Positions 21,352 through 30,715 of a stretch of DNA of 30,715 nt are shown here, piece by piece. Under the pieces are notes generated by a model. It was not told the origin of the DNA. It ran no database searches and saw only the letters and a program-made list of their open reading frames with translations. The translations under genes and the position numbers were made by a program. Numbering within the stretch: the first letter of the stretch is position 1; every line of letters starts with the position of its first letter. This DNA is from a virus: positions 1 through 30,715 of the IMG/VR virus record IMGVR_UViG_3300030101_001574; one strand, written 5' to 3'.

Positions 21352-21410
21352 TTTATATAATTGTTTTTGTTTTACTTTGTAAAGATATAAACATTTTATT
21401 AAAAAACAAA

Positions 21411-22580
21411 TTAATAAACAAAATATTGTCCTTTATTTGGGTTTTCTAACTGATCTGTTAGTGCATACCTTGCTGCATCTATACAATCAGGATGTGAACC
21501 TGTTGGTTTACTTGTAGTGTTACCATCTTTGTCTTTTGCCCATACATATCCTTGTAATTCTCTTTTAAGGTTTCTACTTCTTGCTGTTATGTATATTTCA
21601 TTTTGGTTTATTAAGTTTATACCATATACTACTGAATCCCTACCTTTAGATACAGGATATACTTTATGACCATATCCTACAAGTTCAGCTATACTTTTTG
21701 GTTCTGCTGAATCTGCAATAATATTATCTTGTATATTGTTTGCTTCTAAAAACCTGCTTATATCTCTATTTAACATTCCTGTTTTATATAGCACCTCATC
21801 AAATATGTAAGCATTATTCCATTTATAAAGTGCAATAAGTGTAGATGGATCTATAGAATAACCAAAGTCCATACCATAGTTTAGTAATCTTGCTTCTTGT
21901 GGTATGTTATCTATTTCTTTCCAATCAGGAATACATGCACCTGATAATGTACCTTGTAAACCTAATCCATATACATTCCACCAATTTTCCCAATAGGTAG
22001 ATGTCTTTGCTTTATCTCTTGCTTTCTCTATCTCTTTAACTATTGTTGGTGATAGTGCATCATTATCTTTGTAAGTTAGAGTAATGTAATCTGTGTCAGG
22101 TTGCCCAATAACTTCTTTATCTACCCAAAACAAATGTGTAGGGTTGTAATCTAACCATACTACTTCAGATGTTCGTATAGATAATTCACCATAAGCAGAA
22201 AAAGGAATATTAGAACACTCATTAATGAAGAGAGTGGTTCTTCTACTCCCACGCAATTTATCAGGTTGGTCTGTACTAAAAAATTCAATATAGCTGCCAT
22301 TAGTAAAAGTGTATTTAAGGGTTGTTCTGTTAAATTGTGATTCTTTATATCTGTTTAATCCTTGTAATATGCTAATGAAATCTTTGAGTGCGCCACGCCT
22401 TAAAGATGGTACTGATTCTGCTACTACACTTATTTCTTTACCCTTGTATGTTATTGCTTCATTAATTAATATACAAAGTATAGATATTGTTTTGGAAGCT
22501 GATGTGCCACCTTTTATAACTCTTGTTCTTTGAGTAAGTTTTCTTAATTTAATAAGTGCTTGTGTTTTTTTGACCTGCAT
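21411..22580 (-). CDS. terL: Terminase large subunit
   Basis: At 389 residues this is the packaging motor. The N-terminal ATPase has a P-loop GGTSASKT at 24-31, a form common in Bacteroidetes phages. A second ATP-site segment reads TDQPDKLRGSRRTTLFINEC (about 103-122), whose LFINEC is the Walker B strand with the catalytic Glu. The nuclease domain has Asp in LNYGMDFGYSIDPSTLIALY, DNIIADSAEPKS, and the final Asp in GSHPDCIDAARYAL, giving the three acidic metal ligands of the RNase H-like fold. The length is a little short of typical 420-550. The small subunit lies just upstream. Confidence 0.92.
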   Translation of the reverse strand: MQVKKTQALIKLRKLTQRTRVIKGGTSASKTISILCILINEAITYKGKEISVVAESVPSLRRGALKDFISILQGLNRYKESQFNRTTLKYTFTNGSYIEFFSTDQPDKLRGSRRTTLFINECSNIPFSAYGELSIRTSEVVWLDYNPTHLFWVDKEVIGQPDTDYITLTYKDNDALSPTIVKEIEKARDKAKTSTYWENWWNVYGLGLQGTLSGACIPDWKEIDNIPQEARLLNYGMDFGYSIDPSTLIALYKWNNAYIFDEVLYKTGMLNRDISRFLEANNIQDNIIADSAEPKSIAELVGYGHKVYPVSKGRDSVVYGINLINQNEIYITARSRNLKRELQGYVWAKDKDGNTTSKPTGSHPDCIDAARYALTDQLENPNKGQYFVY

Positions 22581-22610: not shown

Positions 22611-22877
22611 TTAATCTATAAATAAAGGCACATCCTCTGAAACATTTATATTCTTTGTTTCTGTAGGTTTACCTGCATAGTAGTTGTAAAACAACTGTAC
22701 ATATTTAAAATCTCCTTTTTCAACTCCTGCTTTAAGTGCTGCATATGCTAAAGGTTCTAATGGTGTTAACTTTTCTACAAGTTTTATTTCTTCTGCTTTA
22801 GGTTTTCTACCTGCACCATCTCTTTTACCACCATTATTTGATCTACCATCCAAGATTGAAAAACATTGATTAATCAA
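22611..22877 (-). CDS. terS: Terminase small subunit-like protein (TTG start)
   Basis: At 88 residues, with the signature GGKRDGAGRKPKAEEIKLVE (about 16-35), this matches the N-terminus of many small terminase proteins of this group. The rest is helical (PLAYAALKAGVEKGDFKYVQ) and ends in an acidic tail. There is no ATG in the whole ORF. The likely start is TTG at 22877, preceded by TATTGTATAA on the coding strand, the same element seen before several ATG starts. A second TTG lies at codon 9. It directly precedes the large subunit. Expected role: recognising phage DNA for packaging. Confidence 0.65.
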   Translation of the reverse strand: MINQCFSILDGRSNNGGKRDGAGRKPKAEEIKLVEKLTPLEPLAYAALKAGVEKGDFKYVQLFYNYYAGKPTETKNINVSEDVPLFID

Positions 22878-22896: not shown

Positions 22897-23304
22897 TTAA
22901 ACTGTTAATTGCTTTTTTAACATTCTGTTTTCATTTCTTGTTTTTCGTAGTTCTAAAAGTACATCTTTATATTTTTGTCTGTAATAATTAGATGGATCTA
23001 CAAACCTTTCTATGCTTGTACTTTTGTTTCTAAACATTCTATCTAATTTACTATGTATTCTTTTGTAATCTTGTGCATCTTCATATTTTGTTATCACATC
23101 ATCAAACAAGCGTAATCCATGTAATACTGTTGCATGATCTTTTTTTACAGATTTACCAATACTTGAAAGTGTTGCTCTTGTATGTGTCTTACAAAGTTTA
23201 TAGTAAATACTTCTTGCATATACTATTTCTCTTTGCCTTGATTTTAGTTTTAAATCTGCATCTGTTTCTATTTCAACTATTTCTTTTATCTTGTCTAATT
23301 TCAT
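22897..23304 (-). CDS. Stand-alone DnaA domain IV-like DNA-binding protein
   Basis: Residues about 22-66 match the C-terminal DNA-binding domain of the bacterial initiator DnaA. SRQREIVYARSIYYKLCK corresponds to the KR-[KR]-E-I-V-x-A-R-x-I-A helix. SIGKSVKKDHATVLHGLR corresponds to the DnaA signature IG...F..RDH[TS]TV.HA, with the DHATVLHG residues that contact the DnaA box. No AAA+ domain precedes it. The rest is a linker and a C-terminal coiled coil (KYKDVLLELRKTRNENRMLK). In DnaA this domain binds TTATCCACA boxes. A solo copy may target host or phage origins, act as a repressor or sequester boxes. It overlaps the 74-aa gene upstream and lies just before the terminase genes. Confidence 0.8.
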   Translation of the reverse strand: MKLDKIKEIVEIETDADLKLKSRQREIVYARSIYYKLCKTHTRATLSSIGKSVKKDHATVLHGLRLFDDVITKYEDAQDYKRIHSKLDRMFRNKSTSIERFVDPSNYYRQKYKDVLLELRKTRNENRMLKKQLTV

Positions 23305-23497
23305 CTATCTTTTTTTTAATTGTTGTTAGTGTATCATTTTTTACCTCATCTATTGCTCTTTGTATTCCTGCACATGCTTCATAATCTTCCAAAACTTCAT
23401 AGTAATGTATTGCTTTTTCTAATTCATCTATTGGTGATCCATTTGCTAAATCAGTAAGTGCCATTAAATAAAACTCATTTATTAGGTTTCTTTTCAA
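23273..23497 (-). CDS. Hypothetical small protein, 74 aa or 63 aa
   Basis: The ORF can start at TTG 23497 or at ATG 23464; the ATG version begins MALTDLANGSPIDELEKAIH. A short helical hairpin follows (HYYEVLEDYEACAGIQRAID), then a charged tail (KKKIDEIRQDKRNS). The stop lies 31 bases inside the DnaA-like gene, implying coupled translation. I recall this kind of small protein upstream of replication genes, without function. The start is uncertain: the TTG fills the space after the upstream gene, the ATG is the conventional choice. Confidence 0.6.
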   Translation of the reverse strand: MKRNLINEFYLMALTDLANGSPIDELEKAIHYYEVLEDYEACAGIQRAIDEVKNDTLTTIKKKIDEIRQDKRNS

Positions 23498-24242: not shown

Positions 24243-24821
24243 TTATAATACACCTCTCTTTGTTTGTTGTTCTTTTGTATATAAATCTTCAATTTCTTTA
24301 ATTGTAAAATTATCATGTATTATATTATGGCAATTTTCACATAGTATTTTTAAATCTCTTTGATGCTCATGCCCCCATCTTCTATAAGTTCTATGATGTA
24401 TATGTAAATACTTAGAATCATTTGGAATATATCCACAATCTTCACATTTTATCCCTCTTTTCTTTAAGAGATATTTTCTTTTATTTCTCCAAATAGAAGA
24501 TTTAACATAATTTTTGTGATTTTGTTTATTATCAAAGTCAAGATTTTTACAAAAGTATAAATTAAAAGGTTTTGTTTTTTCTTTTATATTTTCTGTATCT
24601 ATAGATATGTTTAACTGACCTAATAACTTATCATTTACTTGTTTTATTACTTGTGTTATTCCGAATAAATGTTTATTAGTAATAATTCTTTTTTTCTTTA
24701 TTGATATGGTTAACATACCTTTATAATTAGATGGTACATATCTATAATTTTTATTTTTTTTTATAGTTCTTAATAAGAATACTTGATCTTTATTTAAAGG
24801 ATACCCTCTAATTTTCTTCAT
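24243..24821 (-). CDS. HNH endonuclease
   Basis: This is 192 residues with a C-terminal zinc-stabilised HNH domain. CEDCGYIPNDSKYLHIHHRT holds the first Cys pair and the His-His catalytic centre. LKILCENCHNIIHD holds the second Cys pair and last His. The first half (PLNKDQVFLLRTIKKNKNYR) is basic and probably binds DNA. Such enzymes in phages are free-standing homing nucleases or packaging nickases. It lies far from terminase, between ParB-like and RecB-like genes, which fits a mobile insert. The start codon overlaps the upstream stop (ATGA). Confidence 0.82.
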   Translation of the reverse strand: MKKIRGYPLNKDQVFLLRTIKKNKNYRYVPSNYKGMLTISIKKKRIITNKHLFGITQVIKQVNDKLLGQLNISIDTENIKEKTKPFNLYFCKNLDFDNKQNHKNYVKSSIWRNKRKYLLKKRGIKCEDCGYIPNDSKYLHIHHRTYRRWGHEHQRDLKILCENCHNIIHDNFTIKEIEDLYTKEQQTKRGVL

Positions 24822-25579
24822 AAAATACCTCTTAATACATATTGATCTAAATCATTTTCTTCTTGGAAAAAATATTTGTAATTACTTACTGCTTGTTTAA
24901 ATTTATCTTCACCTCTTGCAATAAATTCATCACTTGTTTCAAATATACCAATATCAGTAGAATTTTTATCTACCACAATAAAACTACATTTATCTTTTTT
25001 AAACATCCTTTGGTATATGTATGCTTGTAGATCATAACCAAATTTATCTGCAGAGTATCTAAAGCTGTTTAGATCTTGTGTGCTTTTTATGTCTACTATA
25101 CAATCATCTCTTAAAATATCTGCTTTTGCTCTAAAAGGTAAACCATCTAACATTTGTATTTCAGGTATTTCAAACTCTGCTTTGTTTAGTAGTTTAAGTA
25201 CAGCTTCGTTTCTTAATAGTGCATCTGCTAATCTTTCTGCTTCGTTTATCTCTTTTCTTAAATACACTTCTTGATGTTCTATCTTTGCATCTTTGTATGC
25301 TTTTGTGTTTTTGGTAGTTGCTTCTATAACTTTTAGTTTTTTTATTTTGTGTGGTTCTAATACCATCCAATGTAAAAGTTTACCAAGTACAAGTGCTGCA
25401 GATTCTGTAGAACCATAGTTCAAAACATTTCTATATGTCTTTGGTGATTTCAACAACATCTTTAGTGCAGAACTACTTAAAGCATTTTTACCTAACACAC
25501 CATAATAAAACTCATCATCATAAGCCATGCTTATAATTTCTTCTTTGGAATATGTATCACCATTTAATAACGTAATCAT
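24818..25579 (-). CDS. PD-(D/E)XK exonuclease-like protein (DUF3799/RecB-like)
   Basis: This 253-residue protein has the DUF3799-type layout. LSSSALKMLLKSPKTYRNVL (about 34-53) is the N-terminal SxSxL...SP.y motif. AALVLGKLLHWMVLEP follows, with the G-x-x-x-H element. The catalytic centre is GLPFRAKADIL...IVDIKSTQDLNSFRYS, where Asp, then Asp-x-Lys (DIKS) form the PD...(D/E)xK motif. FGYDLQAYIYQRM is the usual QxxxY helix. Relatives are phage exonucleases (lambda Exo/RecE-like) used in recombination or end processing. An SSB-like protein is encoded nearby; no obvious annealing protein was found. Confidence 0.8.
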   Translation of the reverse strand: MITLLNGDTYSKEEIISMAYDDEFYYGVLGKNALSSSALKMLLKSPKTYRNVLNYGSTESAALVLGKLLHWMVLEPHKIKKLKVIEATTKNTKAYKDAKIEHQEVYLRKEINEAERLADALLRNEAVLKLLNKAEFEIPEIQMLDGLPFRAKADILRDDCIVDIKSTQDLNSFRYSADKFGYDLQAYIYQRMFKKDKCSFIVVDKNSTDIGIFETSDEFIARGEDKFKQAVSNYKYFFQEENDLDQYVLRGIL

Positions 25580-25718: not shown

Positions 25719-25814
25719 TTAAAGTTTCTCTAAATTAATTAAAATTTTATCAACAAACAAATATTTATACTCGCCAACAAATGTTGCTGTACTATGCCAT
25801 TCTATGATCTCCAT
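25719..25814 (-). CDS. Micro-ORF, 31 aa
   Basis: The ORF begins at ATG 25814, inside the preceding 24-aa ORF, and ends 11 bases before the next start. It reads MEIIEWHSTATFVGEYKYLF at its start and ends DKILINLEKL, compatible with a beta-hairpin plus strand. It contains a TTATCAACA at 25747-25755. Chained overlap is the only support. Confidence 0.35.
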   Translation of the reverse strand: MEIIEWHSTATFVGEYKYLFVDKILINLEKL

Positions 25815-25876: not shown

Positions 25877-26174
25877 ATATCTTTTTATATTTTTGCATTT
25901 CTTTTTCTAACTTTTCAAGTTTTTCTTCTGCATCTCTTGCTCTAATGATTGCTCTGTTTTTATCTGCTCTGTATTCACTTATAGATGCATCATAGTGTTT
26001 TTGTTCTATAATCATATTGTGTACATAAAATCCTATATCTTGCCATGCAAAATACATTTCATTAAGTGGTTTAGAATCTTCTTTCATTTTCTTCCACTTT
26101 ATTATATACTCACCTACTAAATTAAAGTTAGCATAATAATCTATTTCTTTTAAATTGTTTATTTTTTTGTTCAT
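25869..26174 (-). CDS. Hypothetical helical protein, 101 aa
   Basis: The product is helical, with IKWKKMKEDSKPLNEMYFAW near the centre and a C-terminal coiled coil (ARDAEEKLEKLEKEMQKYKK). The start overlaps the stop of the restriction-like gene (ATGA). No domain recognised. The coiled coil suggests oligomerisation or a partner protein. Confidence 0.6.
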   Translation of the reverse strand: MNKKINNLKEIDYYANFNLVGEYIIKWKKMKEDSKPLNEMYFAWQDIGFYVHNMIIEQKHYDASISEYRADKNRAIIRARDAEEKLEKLEKEMQKYKKIYG

Positions 26175-26809: not shown

Positions 26810-27219
26810 TATGTATACTGTTTGTAAACTTTCTGTAGAGAATCCCATACTGTACTTTTAAAACTACATGGAATACATTCAACCCTTTGGTTAAATATTC
26901 TGTTGTATATAGATGTGTATTGTTTTGCTTCTTCTGCTGTAAATGTATTCTTTTTACTTTCAATAGCAGATTTCACTAATTCATATTCTGATGCAGTAAA
27001 ACATTCAGGTTTTTGTCTTGGAAATAATTTATTAAGTTTTTCTTTTCTTCTATCACAACCACAATCTCTACCATCTGCAAAAAATTCTACTGCTGCTTTT
27101 ATACCTGTAGCTGTTGTTATTTTTTCTACTACATCTCCTAAACCACTAATACCTGCTTCATGGTTTTTTTTCCATTGTTTATATGCTTTTGTTCTTTTAT
27201 CACCTTTATATTCTGTCAT
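26809..27219 (-). CDS. Cys-rich conserved phage protein, 136 aa
   Basis: The N-terminal segment AGISGLGDVVEKITTATGIK and the following AVEFFADGRDCGCDRRKEKL form a pattern I recall from several Bacteroidetes phages (GLGDxxEKxTxATGIK...DCGCxxRKxxLN). Further cysteines come in KPECFTASEY and VECIPCSF, giving five in total. Two CxC/CxxC pairs suggest zinc binding. It follows the sigma-like factor and overlaps it by 14 bases, hinting at joint action in gene control, but no function is established to my knowledge. Confidence 0.6.
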   Translation of the reverse strand: MTEYKGDKRTKAYKQWKKNHEAGISGLGDVVEKITTATGIKAAVEFFADGRDCGCDRRKEKLNKLFPRQKPECFTASEYELVKSAIESKKNTFTAEEAKQYTSIYNRIFNQRVECIPCSFKSTVWDSLQKVYKQYT

Positions 27220-27754
27220 AATCTTTATTTTTAAAATCTAAATAACTTTCTTCTACCTTTTCTTTTATATCTAATTTAAGTGTTTTTAAACTGTTGAATA
27301 TACTTACCCAAGAAATTTTAGTTTCTTCTGCAAGTTTTCTAATACTCATATCTGTTTTAGAATACAAGTTCCATAACTTTTTATCATACCAATGCCAATC
27401 ATCTGTAACCTCATCTACCAATAAACATATCTTATGAAATGCTTCGTTTTCTTCTATGTTATCAGTATCAGGTATTTGTAAAAATTTATCATCATCATCA
27501 ATACTTACTTTGTGTATTTTTTTCTTTTTGTTGTAGTATTGGAAATATAAACTCTTAAGTGTAAAAAATATATATCCCCTGCTTACTTTACCATCCTTAA
27601 TTATTTTTTCAGGATCTGCATATTTAGATAACGTAATATACATTTGTTGTACAAGATCTTCATGGTAAGTATATTCACCAAAACTTTTTACAATGCCAAC
27701 CCATGTTTTATGTTGTTTAGCAACCACACTTAACCATTCGAAGTTTGTACCCAT
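27206..27754 (-). CDS. Sigma-70-like/HTH transcription factor
   Basis: This is 182 residues. The first half resembles sigma region 2: YHEDLVQQMYITLSKYADPE (about 30-49) corresponds to the D-L-x-Q-[ED]-x-[FY]-x-x-[LV] helix, and GYIFFTLKSLYFQYYNKKKK (60-79) to the following -10 recognition helix with its basic end. After an acidic linker (about 85-103), residues 121-165 form a region 4-like HTH: HWYDKKLWNLYSKTDMSIRK, then LAEETKISWVSIFNSLK. It would direct host RNA polymerase to phage promoters, as late sigma-like factors do. The same HTH is found inserted in the endonuclease gene at the right edge. Related proteins are common in marine phages as I recall. A pure DNA-binding regulator is the alternative. 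Confidence 0.65.
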   Translation of the reverse strand: MGTNFEWLSVVAKQHKTWVGIVKSFGEYTYHEDLVQQMYITLSKYADPEKIIKDGKVSRGYIFFTLKSLYFQYYNKKKKIHKVSIDDDDKFLQIPDTDNIEENEAFHKICLLVDEVTDDWHWYDKKLWNLYSKTDMSIRKLAEETKISWVSIFNSLKTLKLDIKEKVEESYLDFKNKDYDRI

Positions 27755-27948
27755 TGTATTGTTATACTAATAAAAAAAATGCAAACCTGCAAAGTATGCT
27801 CCCTACCCTCATCATAATCAGTATATGAATATAAAGCACCAACCATAACACCTAATATTGGTGCAAAAATTATTTCAGCTTTATAAAATAATCCTGCAAA
27901 TATTGATGCTACAGTTATTGATACTAATATTATAATTACTGTTATCAA
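27730..27948 (-). CDS. Small membrane protein, 72 aa
   Basis: The N-terminus is a membrane helix (MITVIIILVSITVASIFAGL). A second hydrophobic segment (IIFAPILGVMVGALYSY) follows, then an acidic loop (DYDEGREHT) and a weaker third stretch (LQVCIFFISITIQW). The stop lies 24 bases into the sigma-like gene and the start overlaps the helicase stop, so it belongs to the replication operon. It may be an inner membrane anchor or exclusion protein. No family recognised. Confidence 0.6.
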   Translation of the reverse strand: MITVIIILVSITVASIFAGLFYKAEIIFAPILGVMVGALYSYTDYDEGREHTLQVCIFFISITIQWVQTSNG

Positions 27949-28859
27949 AATAATACTTCTTTAATTGTTGCTTTTTTACTATGTAGTATATCCTTACCCA
28001 TAAATTCAAACCCTACATTGTTCTTAACCATTCGTAATCTAATAGGTTCTTGATATGGTGTACATCTCATTCCTGTTTCTGTTTCCTTAACTTTAAGTAC
28101 ATGCAAATGTGAATACATCCAATCAGTAGGATGTGTTGTGTACCTATGGCAGCATATTACATCATCTGCTCTGTTACCCCATTTACCACCACCCTCAACA
28201 GATGCTAACCCTAATGGTATAGGTAAGTTAGCATATTCATGTTCTTTGGGGTGTGTTCTTCTCATTGCTTCTGTAACACCATGTGCATTTAGATATAAAG
28301 TAACATTTTTTTTCTTTGCAAATAATCTAAATTCTGTTGCTACTGTATAATCATATAAATGTGATCCTATACCTCTCATAAGTTGTGTATCTACAGATAG
28401 TGAATTATATGGATCAATAAGTAAGCCATGATAATCCCATACATCTTTTATAGAACTTACCTCTTTAAGTAAATCTTTGTATGTATATAAATCATCAACA
28501 TCTATAATTTTAAAATATTGATTGCACCAATTTATACTTTCTTTGATTTCTTTTTTAGTTGCAGTATGTATTGGTTTACCCATTTTAAATTCAATTATCT
28601 TTCTTACAATACTATCAGGTGTATTTTCACTACTCCAAATTACAAATCTTAATTTATGTAATATAGCATATAGTGTTAAAAAATAACATATGATAGTTGT
28701 TTTACCAACATTAGCATGACCTATCCACAAACAAAAATTACCTTGTTTATATCTTATATACTCATCAATTTCAGGTACACCAATTTTTAAACCCTCTTGG
28801 ATTTTACCATCTTTAATGTCGTATATTCTTTCTTCAATTTGGTTTGTATTTGCAATCAT
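27945..28859 (-). CDS. Replicative helicase-like ATPase (DnaB/RecA fold)
   Basis: This is 304 residues, one RecA-type domain. KIGVPEIDEYIRYKQGNFCL leads into the Walker A loop GHANVGKTT (47-55). VIWSSENTPDSIVRKIIEF resembles the DnaB H1a segment with the catalytic Glu (SSEN, like S-[LM]-E-M). LLIDPYNSL is Walker B. LYLNAHG is the H3/sensor strand, and the late GGGKWGNRADDVI segment follows the DnaB pattern of G-[SA]-x-x-x-x-x-x-A-D. There is no N-terminal primase or DnaB helical domain, so the protein is shorter than DnaB (about 450) or T7 gp4. It may load on the host replisome or act in recombination. Confidence 0.78.
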   Translation of the reverse strand: MIANTNQIEERIYDIKDGKIQEGLKIGVPEIDEYIRYKQGNFCLWIGHANVGKTTIICYFLTLYAILHKLRFVIWSSENTPDSIVRKIIEFKMGKPIHTATKKEIKESINWCNQYFKIIDVDDLYTYKDLLKEVSSIKDVWDYHGLLIDPYNSLSVDTQLMRGIGSHLYDYTVATEFRLFAKKKNVTLYLNAHGVTEAMRRTHPKEHEYANLPIPLGLASVEGGGKWGNRADDVICCHRYTTHPTDWMYSHLHVLKVKETETGMRCTPYQEPIRLRMVKNNVGFEFMGKDILHSKKATIKEVLF

Positions 28860-29582: not shown

Positions 29583-29634
29583 AATTATTTATTTTTAAGT
29601 TCATATAAAGTTATAAAAAATTTATTAAAAAAAA

Positions 29635-29658
29635 AGGGTAGAAAATAAAATCTACCCT
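29635..29658 (-). terminator. Rho-independent terminator after ninG-like gene
   Basis: AGGGTAGA (29635-29642) pairs with TCTACCCT (29651-29658). On the minus strand nine T follow the stem (complement of 29626-29634). It lies between the NinG-like gene and the 108-aa gene. Confidence 0.82.
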
Positions 29659-30303: not shown

Positions 30304-30715
30304 TGTTAGTTGTTATTTTAATTTGTATTTATTTTTTATTCTACTTACAATACCTGTTTGTGATCTTAACCAAAGTTTTTTTATTCTATATTTTTTTTCA
30401 ATTTCTGCATATTCTTGTAAATATTTCTTCACTCTTGTATAAGTATTATAAATAGAAGTATAACTAATATTAGTTTTATCAGATAAACTTTTTATGGTTT
30501 CACCACCTTGTATATAGTTATATATTTTCTTGTCATACCAATGTAACGTATCTATTTGATTTTTGTTACATACTTTTTTTTGATACATTTTATTATGTAT
30601 TTTATTATACTTTGGTAAAAATTTTCTTATATACTTTGCTTCTAATCTGTTTACTTCTTTACTTGTAGTAAAATCACCTAAATTTTCTATAATTGTCCAA
30701 GAATCAAATTCCTTA
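30304..30715. repeat. Right copy of imperfect terminal direct repeat
   Basis: The counterpart of bases 1-272. It carries an extra in-frame block at 30412-30555 (48 codons in place of one in the left copy). The flanks on each side of the block stay nearly identical, and the window ends inside the repeat. Confidence 0.85.
30313..30715 (-). CDS. GIY-YIG endonuclease with inserted HTH, 5' end beyond the window
   Basis: The reading frame stays open to the window edge, so the true start lies outside; the Met at 30588 is internal. The visible part begins at the equivalent of residue 50 of the left copy (KEFDSWTIIENLGDFTTSKE). It keeps the catalytic-side segment with KYIRKFLPKYNK, and ends KKLWLRSQTGIV then a frameshifted tail. 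Between VCNKNQ and YAEIEKK it has 48 residues in place of one: IDTLHWYDKKIYNYIQGG, then ETIKSLSDKTNISYTSIYNT. This is a helix-turn-helix. GIY-YIG enzymes commonly carry separate DNA-binding modules, so the block may set target specificity. Confidence 0.78.
   Translation of the reverse strand, partial: KEFDSWTIIENLGDFTTSKEVNRLEAKYIRKFLPKYNKIHNKMYQKKVCNKNQIDTLHWYDKKIYNYIQGGETIKSLSDKTNISYTSIYNTYTRVKKYLQEYAEIEKKYRIKKLWLRSQTGIVSRIKNKYKLK

Follow-up and report, generated by a model that had tools for sequence, protein, structure and literature searches.

The window, meaning the whole 30,715-nt stretch of DNA analysed here, encodes a 135-aa ORF that matches Bac_DnaA_C in Pfam with an E-value of 4.7e-14 and 52.6 bits, above the curated cut-off of 31.5 for DnaA domain IV membership. 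Against the NCBIfam DnaA profile TIGR00362, the ORF covered the profile end alone (positions 363–426 of 437) and scored 45 bits versus a cut-off of 344. Because the match is restricted to these positions, the AAA+ motor is absent, and a search of the ORF with this profile for the AAA+ ATPase and domain I returned neither, so the protein is not a full initiator. The original prediction of a stand-alone DnaA domain IV without the motor is thus confirmed. The features of the locus are collected in Table 1.

Table 1. Features of the solo DnaA domain IV locus and related elements in the window.
Feature	Position	Strand	Remarks
Similar promoter downstream of terL (late genes)	21378..21411	-	
Terminase large subunit	21411..22580	-	About 50% identity to FPSV/Fpv terminases
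Small-terminase-like gene	22611..22877	-	Conserved neighbour on the downstream side; identified by position and reading, without a strong family match
Solo DnaA domain IV protein, 135 aa	22897..23304	-	Bac_DnaA_C residues 15-65; helical extension 75-134
Reading helix DHATVLHG, residues 56-63	23116..23139	-	From sequence; invariant residues in 53 relatives
Basic loop R23-R31	23212..23238	-	Aligned to E. coli R399, R401, R407
74-aa helical partner gene	23273..23497	-	Overlaps start of DnaA-like gene by 32 bp
RecE/DUF3799-like exonuclease	24818..25579	-	Conserved upstream neighbour
Bacteroidota-type promoter of the exonuclease operon leading to the DnaA-like gene	25729..25762	-	TTATCAACA at 25747-25755
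Replicative-helicase-like ATPase without primase part	27945..28859	-	Matches 346-606 of 644 of primase-helicase family
Weaker promoter-like site of similar type, upstream of early genes	29604..29637	-	

A single-sequence fold of the protein was poor (pLDDT 49) and was replaced by an AF2 model based on a 53-sequence alignment, which reached a pLDDT of 90.3. The top Foldseek matches of this model were DnaA domain IV structures, with modest E-values of 1e-3 to 6e-3 and TM-scores against 1j1v and 3pvp of 0.79–0.82 over the target. Superposition of 1j1v, E. coli DnaA domain IV, gave an rmsd of 1.8 Å and a TM-score of 0.82 over the target, and the same chain was the top PDB match by sequence (E 6.5e-4). 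The structure comparison proposed earlier as a check therefore agrees with a domain IV fold. A weak match to retron Ec67 in the PDB search (E 0.67) was dropped, and PADLOC matched the protein to no defence system. The C-terminal tail consists of two helices (residues 75–102 and 113–134), which may form the coiled coil suggested earlier and may dimerise the protein.

The helix expected to read the DnaA box was indeed kept, with H57, A58, V60 and G63 invariant among 53 relatives, as were R23 and R31 of the basic loop. In our alignment, E. coli R399, R401 and R407 correspond to R23, R25 and R31, and D433, H434, T435, T436 and H439 to D56, H57, A58, T59 and H62, indicating that both the DnaA signature helix (DHATVLH, residues 56–62) and the minor-groove arginine are present. 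The phage protein thus shares its fold, arginine loop and reading helix with bacterial DnaA domain IV (PF08299; 1j1v, 3pvp), but it lacks the AAA+ part and domain I and has gained the helical tail. Flavobacterial DnaA proteins, a comparison group that may not include the window phage's own host, carry KSKTRKREIVQAR...KDHATVLHA. The phage helix KDHATVLH is identical to theirs, including the Ala that replaces E. coli T435, and the phage loop K[ST]R..RE.V.AR also agrees with flavobacterial host DnaA.

Nearly all close relatives retain the pair formed by the 74-aa gene and the DnaA-like gene, in the order exonuclease, variable cargo, 74-aa gene, DnaA-like gene, small terminase and large terminase. 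Cargo after the exonuclease comprises RecT, ParB-like, HNH and methyltransferase genes, and a methyltransferase or PAPS-reductase-like gene sometimes lies between the DnaA-like gene and the small terminase. Both flanks of the pair swap cargo among close relatives (L003:1429-2034, L004:2062-2910, L002:987-1982), the exchanged genes being those for methyltransferase, an SspD/PAPS-reductase-like protein (PADLOC E 3.4e-9), RecT, ParB-like and HNH proteins. The position before terS-terL holds for the close family only, and in a 60–70 kb lineage the DnaA-like gene instead precedes those for exonuclease, SSB and helicase. A helicase ATPase without primase and the lack of a polymerase had also been predicted. 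The ATPase indeed matched the helicase part alone, and within the early region (22.9–30.7 kb) no ORF exceeded 304 aa, too short for a polymerase, in this linear, possibly partial record.

Several other genes of the window were recognised on the minus strand. The ORF at 26171–26848 matches the family of the MjaI restriction endonuclease (Pfam E 4.3e-7; PADLOC REase_II 1.4e-7), with no methyltransferase recognised beside it. An ECF-like sigma factor at 27206–27754 (TIGR02937 E 9.4e-5, below cut-off) could serve phage promoters, and the HNH gene at 24243–24821 weakly matches the HNH portion of IscB, with an E-value of 1.5e-6 that falls far short of the cut-off. A 166-bp repeat of 97% identity occurs at both record ends (107–272 and 30550–30715), inside two similar ORFs (17–418 and 30313–30714), and the record may therefore be nearly complete or contain a duplicated gene.

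A profile scan recovered at least 509 relatives in viral contigs. Many carriers are annotated as DnaA already, among them phages of Olleya, Flavobacterium, Cellulophaga, Polaribacter and Pelagibacter, with further entries in BFVD; named examples are Olleya phage Harreka_1, Cellulophaga phi19:3, phi13:2 and phi10:1, Flavobacterium Muminvirus, Polaribacter P12002L and pelagiphage HTVC035P. These annotated proteins ('DnaA protein' or 'DnaA C-terminal domain-containing') are, like ours, solo Bac_DnaA_C proteins of 110–170 aa with the signature DHA[TS][VI][LI]H, but they stand in another gene order, whereas in the clade of the window the 74-aa partner accompanies the gene, which lies in the exonuclease-terminase setting. 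The window source is a marine-type Bacteroidota phage, the solo DnaA domain IV family is already known, and the window protein, which is well conserved, is largely of this known kind. Our literature search for solo phage DnaA domain IV found annotation only and no functional study. A Christiangramia genome (L195, also L133) holds a solo 135-aa DnaA-C gene besides its normal dnaA, possibly within a prophage, and a human-gut match (L011) was excluded as a full DnaA with AAA+, not kin of the solo kind.

One route in the original prediction, in which the protein would bring host DnaA or helicase to the phage origin via DnaA boxes, is not supported by the box counts. The window has no TTATCCACA, and near-matches are rarer than chance (counts of TTATCCACA and TTWTNCACA), which rules out a canonical-box origin there. 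The suggested search for clustered boxes, covering DnaA-type boxes, turned up none in 14 related genomes; in related phage genomes TTATCCACA stood at chance level. A conserved TGTTAATAA near position 487 was not adopted as an origin, as it sits behind the stop codon of a small ORF.

Flavobacteriaceae genomes hold a different word, TTATNAACA, which differs from the E. coli box by one base. Tandem TTATNAACA was present in all 15 genomes and tandem TTATCCACA in none of the 15; in 14–15 of them such a tandem precedes dnaB and HU. The tandem copies that we read lay mostly upstream of dnaB or HU, genes identified by reading their translated starts (MEKI.SPQNISYKKSNVVSLEKGKVPPQAVDLEEVVLGAMMIDKKGVDEI for dnaB), and the conserved pairs at these genes have a 20-bp period, TTATNAACA-N11-TTATNAACA (L284-L303), which makes them likely DnaA-type regulatory sites. 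The N11-spaced pairs were rejected as the origin, since most lie at dnaB and HU. In one genome the GC skew switches at about 3.62 Mb. A non-coding box cluster, TTTTCAACA-AAG-TTTTCAACA with TTATTAACA and TTATGAACA, is located 26 kb past this switch; the tandem TTTTCAACA is identical in six further genomes. The stretch TTTTCAACAAAGTTTTCAACA, conserved and non-coding beside an nrdB-like gene (L326 (G026 C1:3646245), L324, L325, L327-L330), is a candidate flavobacterial origin near the GC-skew switch. From these positions we infer that TTATNAACA is the Flavobacteriaceae DnaA box and that flavobacterial boxes follow TTWTNAACA. For the solo protein, TTATNAACA (in forms such as TTATTAACA) is probably the box to consider in place of TTATCCACA.

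We evaluated depletion of TTATNAACA against a synonymous-codon shuffle, ranking it among 32,768 bipartite words. In the 14 family genomes it was seen 53 times versus 103 expected (depletion rank 2). Because TTATNAACA was chosen after seeing the family promoters, nine other gene-carrying phages provide the fairer test, and there we counted 36 versus 70.7 expected (rank 3). Pooling both carrier sets gave 89 seen, 174 expected, z −6.4 and rank 1, with depletion in both orientations. Eleven flavophages without the gene had 74 versus 88.2 expected (rank 2571), and 140 kb of one host had 11 versus 12.3. Carriers and non-carriers differed with p values of 0.001 (binomial) and 0.011 (rank test), which are not corrected for phylogeny. 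A change at any of the eight specified positions eased the depletion, mostly fully, relief being partial where G replaced T2 (0.69) and C replaced T4 (0.75), and the candidate origin form TTTTNAACA was not avoided (0.94). The depletion held under an order-5 Markov null (rank 13) and weakened under the strictest one, a maximal-order Markov null (rank 116); non-carriers 6H (1/7.4), phi12:1 (1/4.5) and phi39:1 (1/4.2) were also depleted, and one carrier, G014, was not (16/11.6). An intergenic enrichment of TTATNAACA was set aside as too close to the AT-matched control. As carriers tend to lack the host-like box word, these counts suggest that the protein reads host replication boxes and not a phage origin.

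Occupation of host DnaA boxes by the solo protein, the alternative that the original prediction named, interfering with host DnaA through putative binding, is accordingly our leading reading, held tentatively and at somewhat less than even confidence; it leads because the helix is identical to that of host DnaA, the word is avoided and phage box clusters are missing. A phage transcription regulator comes a close second, since the same word lies between −33 and −7 of family promoters, and is possible if rather doubtful. Such a protein would bind TGTTNATAA-like elements in this interval of middle and late promoters, controlling its own operon and the late switch, while avoidance elsewhere would prevent stray binding. 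In the family, the exonuclease-operon promoter includes TGTTNATAA, which reads as TTATNAACA on the opposite strand; 5 of the 14 genomes have it within the promoter spacer. Family promoters showed TGTTNATAA with another TGTTNAT 11 bp further along 12 times against 0 expected, and GTTNATAAAATGTTNAT-like elements occur at about 18 per Mb in phages versus about 1 per Mb in host relatives. That TTATNAACA was first noticed in phage promoters also suits a phage regulator. In the close family the DnaA-like gene moreover closes the exonuclease operon right before terS-terL, the slot where other phages keep late regulators; RinA, ArpU and lambda Q are such regulators upstream of terS, alike in gene position with no sequence or fold relation seen. 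However, intergenic copies in other carriers are not clearly in promoters, the promoters could be accounted for by the ECF-like sigma gene, their elements are AT-rich and agree in part with an ordinary Bacteroidota promoter, and in larger phages the gene travels with replication genes. A strict promoter pattern, TGTTNATNNNNTGTTNATNATNTTTG, had 0 matches across the collected loci and was discarded as too strict.

This association with exonuclease, SSB and helicase in the 60–70 kb lineage would suit a phage origin-binding protein marking the origin for the phage helicase or host DnaA, as would the presence in the phage of a helicase and an SSB-like gene with no recognised initiator, and the case of phi39:1, where a separate initiator gene is present and the DnaA-like gene is missing. 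We nevertheless consider this role unlikely, given the missing box clusters in 14 genomes, canonical boxes at chance, the depletion of TTATNAACA and, in the window phage, a gene that is far from the helicase and adjoins the terminase; host-box occupation fits the data better than phage-origin recruitment. The constant neighbourhood of terS-terL and exonuclease in the close family could also point to an accessory role in packaging or recombination, with the protein bound to phage DNA beside the terminase, but the gene lies far from the terminase in unrelated carriers and no packaging-site motif was found, making this very improbable.

The gene encodes the reading domain alone of a DnaA of Bacteroidota type, extended by a helical tail; under host-box occupation, this protein is predicted to bind the flavobacterial DnaA box TTATNAACA. 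Having neither ATPase nor domain I, the protein could neither open an origin nor load helicase; when bound at host boxes it would act as a competitor of host DnaA and lower host initiation or the expression of genes under DnaA control, and the phage genome, kept nearly free of TTATNAACA, would spare itself from binding. SeqA, CtrA and Spo0A are origin-occluding regulators and would resemble the phage protein in occupying DnaA sites if this reading is right, although their folds are unrelated and the phage protein is a piece of DnaA. The E. coli prophage protein YfdR is likewise phage-derived and acts on DnaA-dependent initiation, but it binds the DnaA protein, not DNA boxes (PMC4776307). Bac_DnaA_C has also been reused away from DnaA in REP-type HuH transposases, where it is fused to the nuclease and where, according to that study, the target repeats do not resemble the DnaA box (PMC6006769).

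The general proposal that widespread Flavobacteriaceae phages use a captured DnaA reader on host boxes, that these boxes are TTATNAACA and not TTATNCACA, and that the phages purged the box from their own genomes is, taken as a whole, a speculative one that we regard as possible but on the unlikely side. The interest of the locus rests on the box-avoidance result and the proposed flavobacterial box. A concrete target emerges from the word counts, which also suggest that TTATCCACA, the probe in common use, is wrong for Flavobacteriaceae. Binding of this kind, if true, would establish which DnaA box a large bacterial family uses and reveal a phage route to control host replication initiation or phage late genes.
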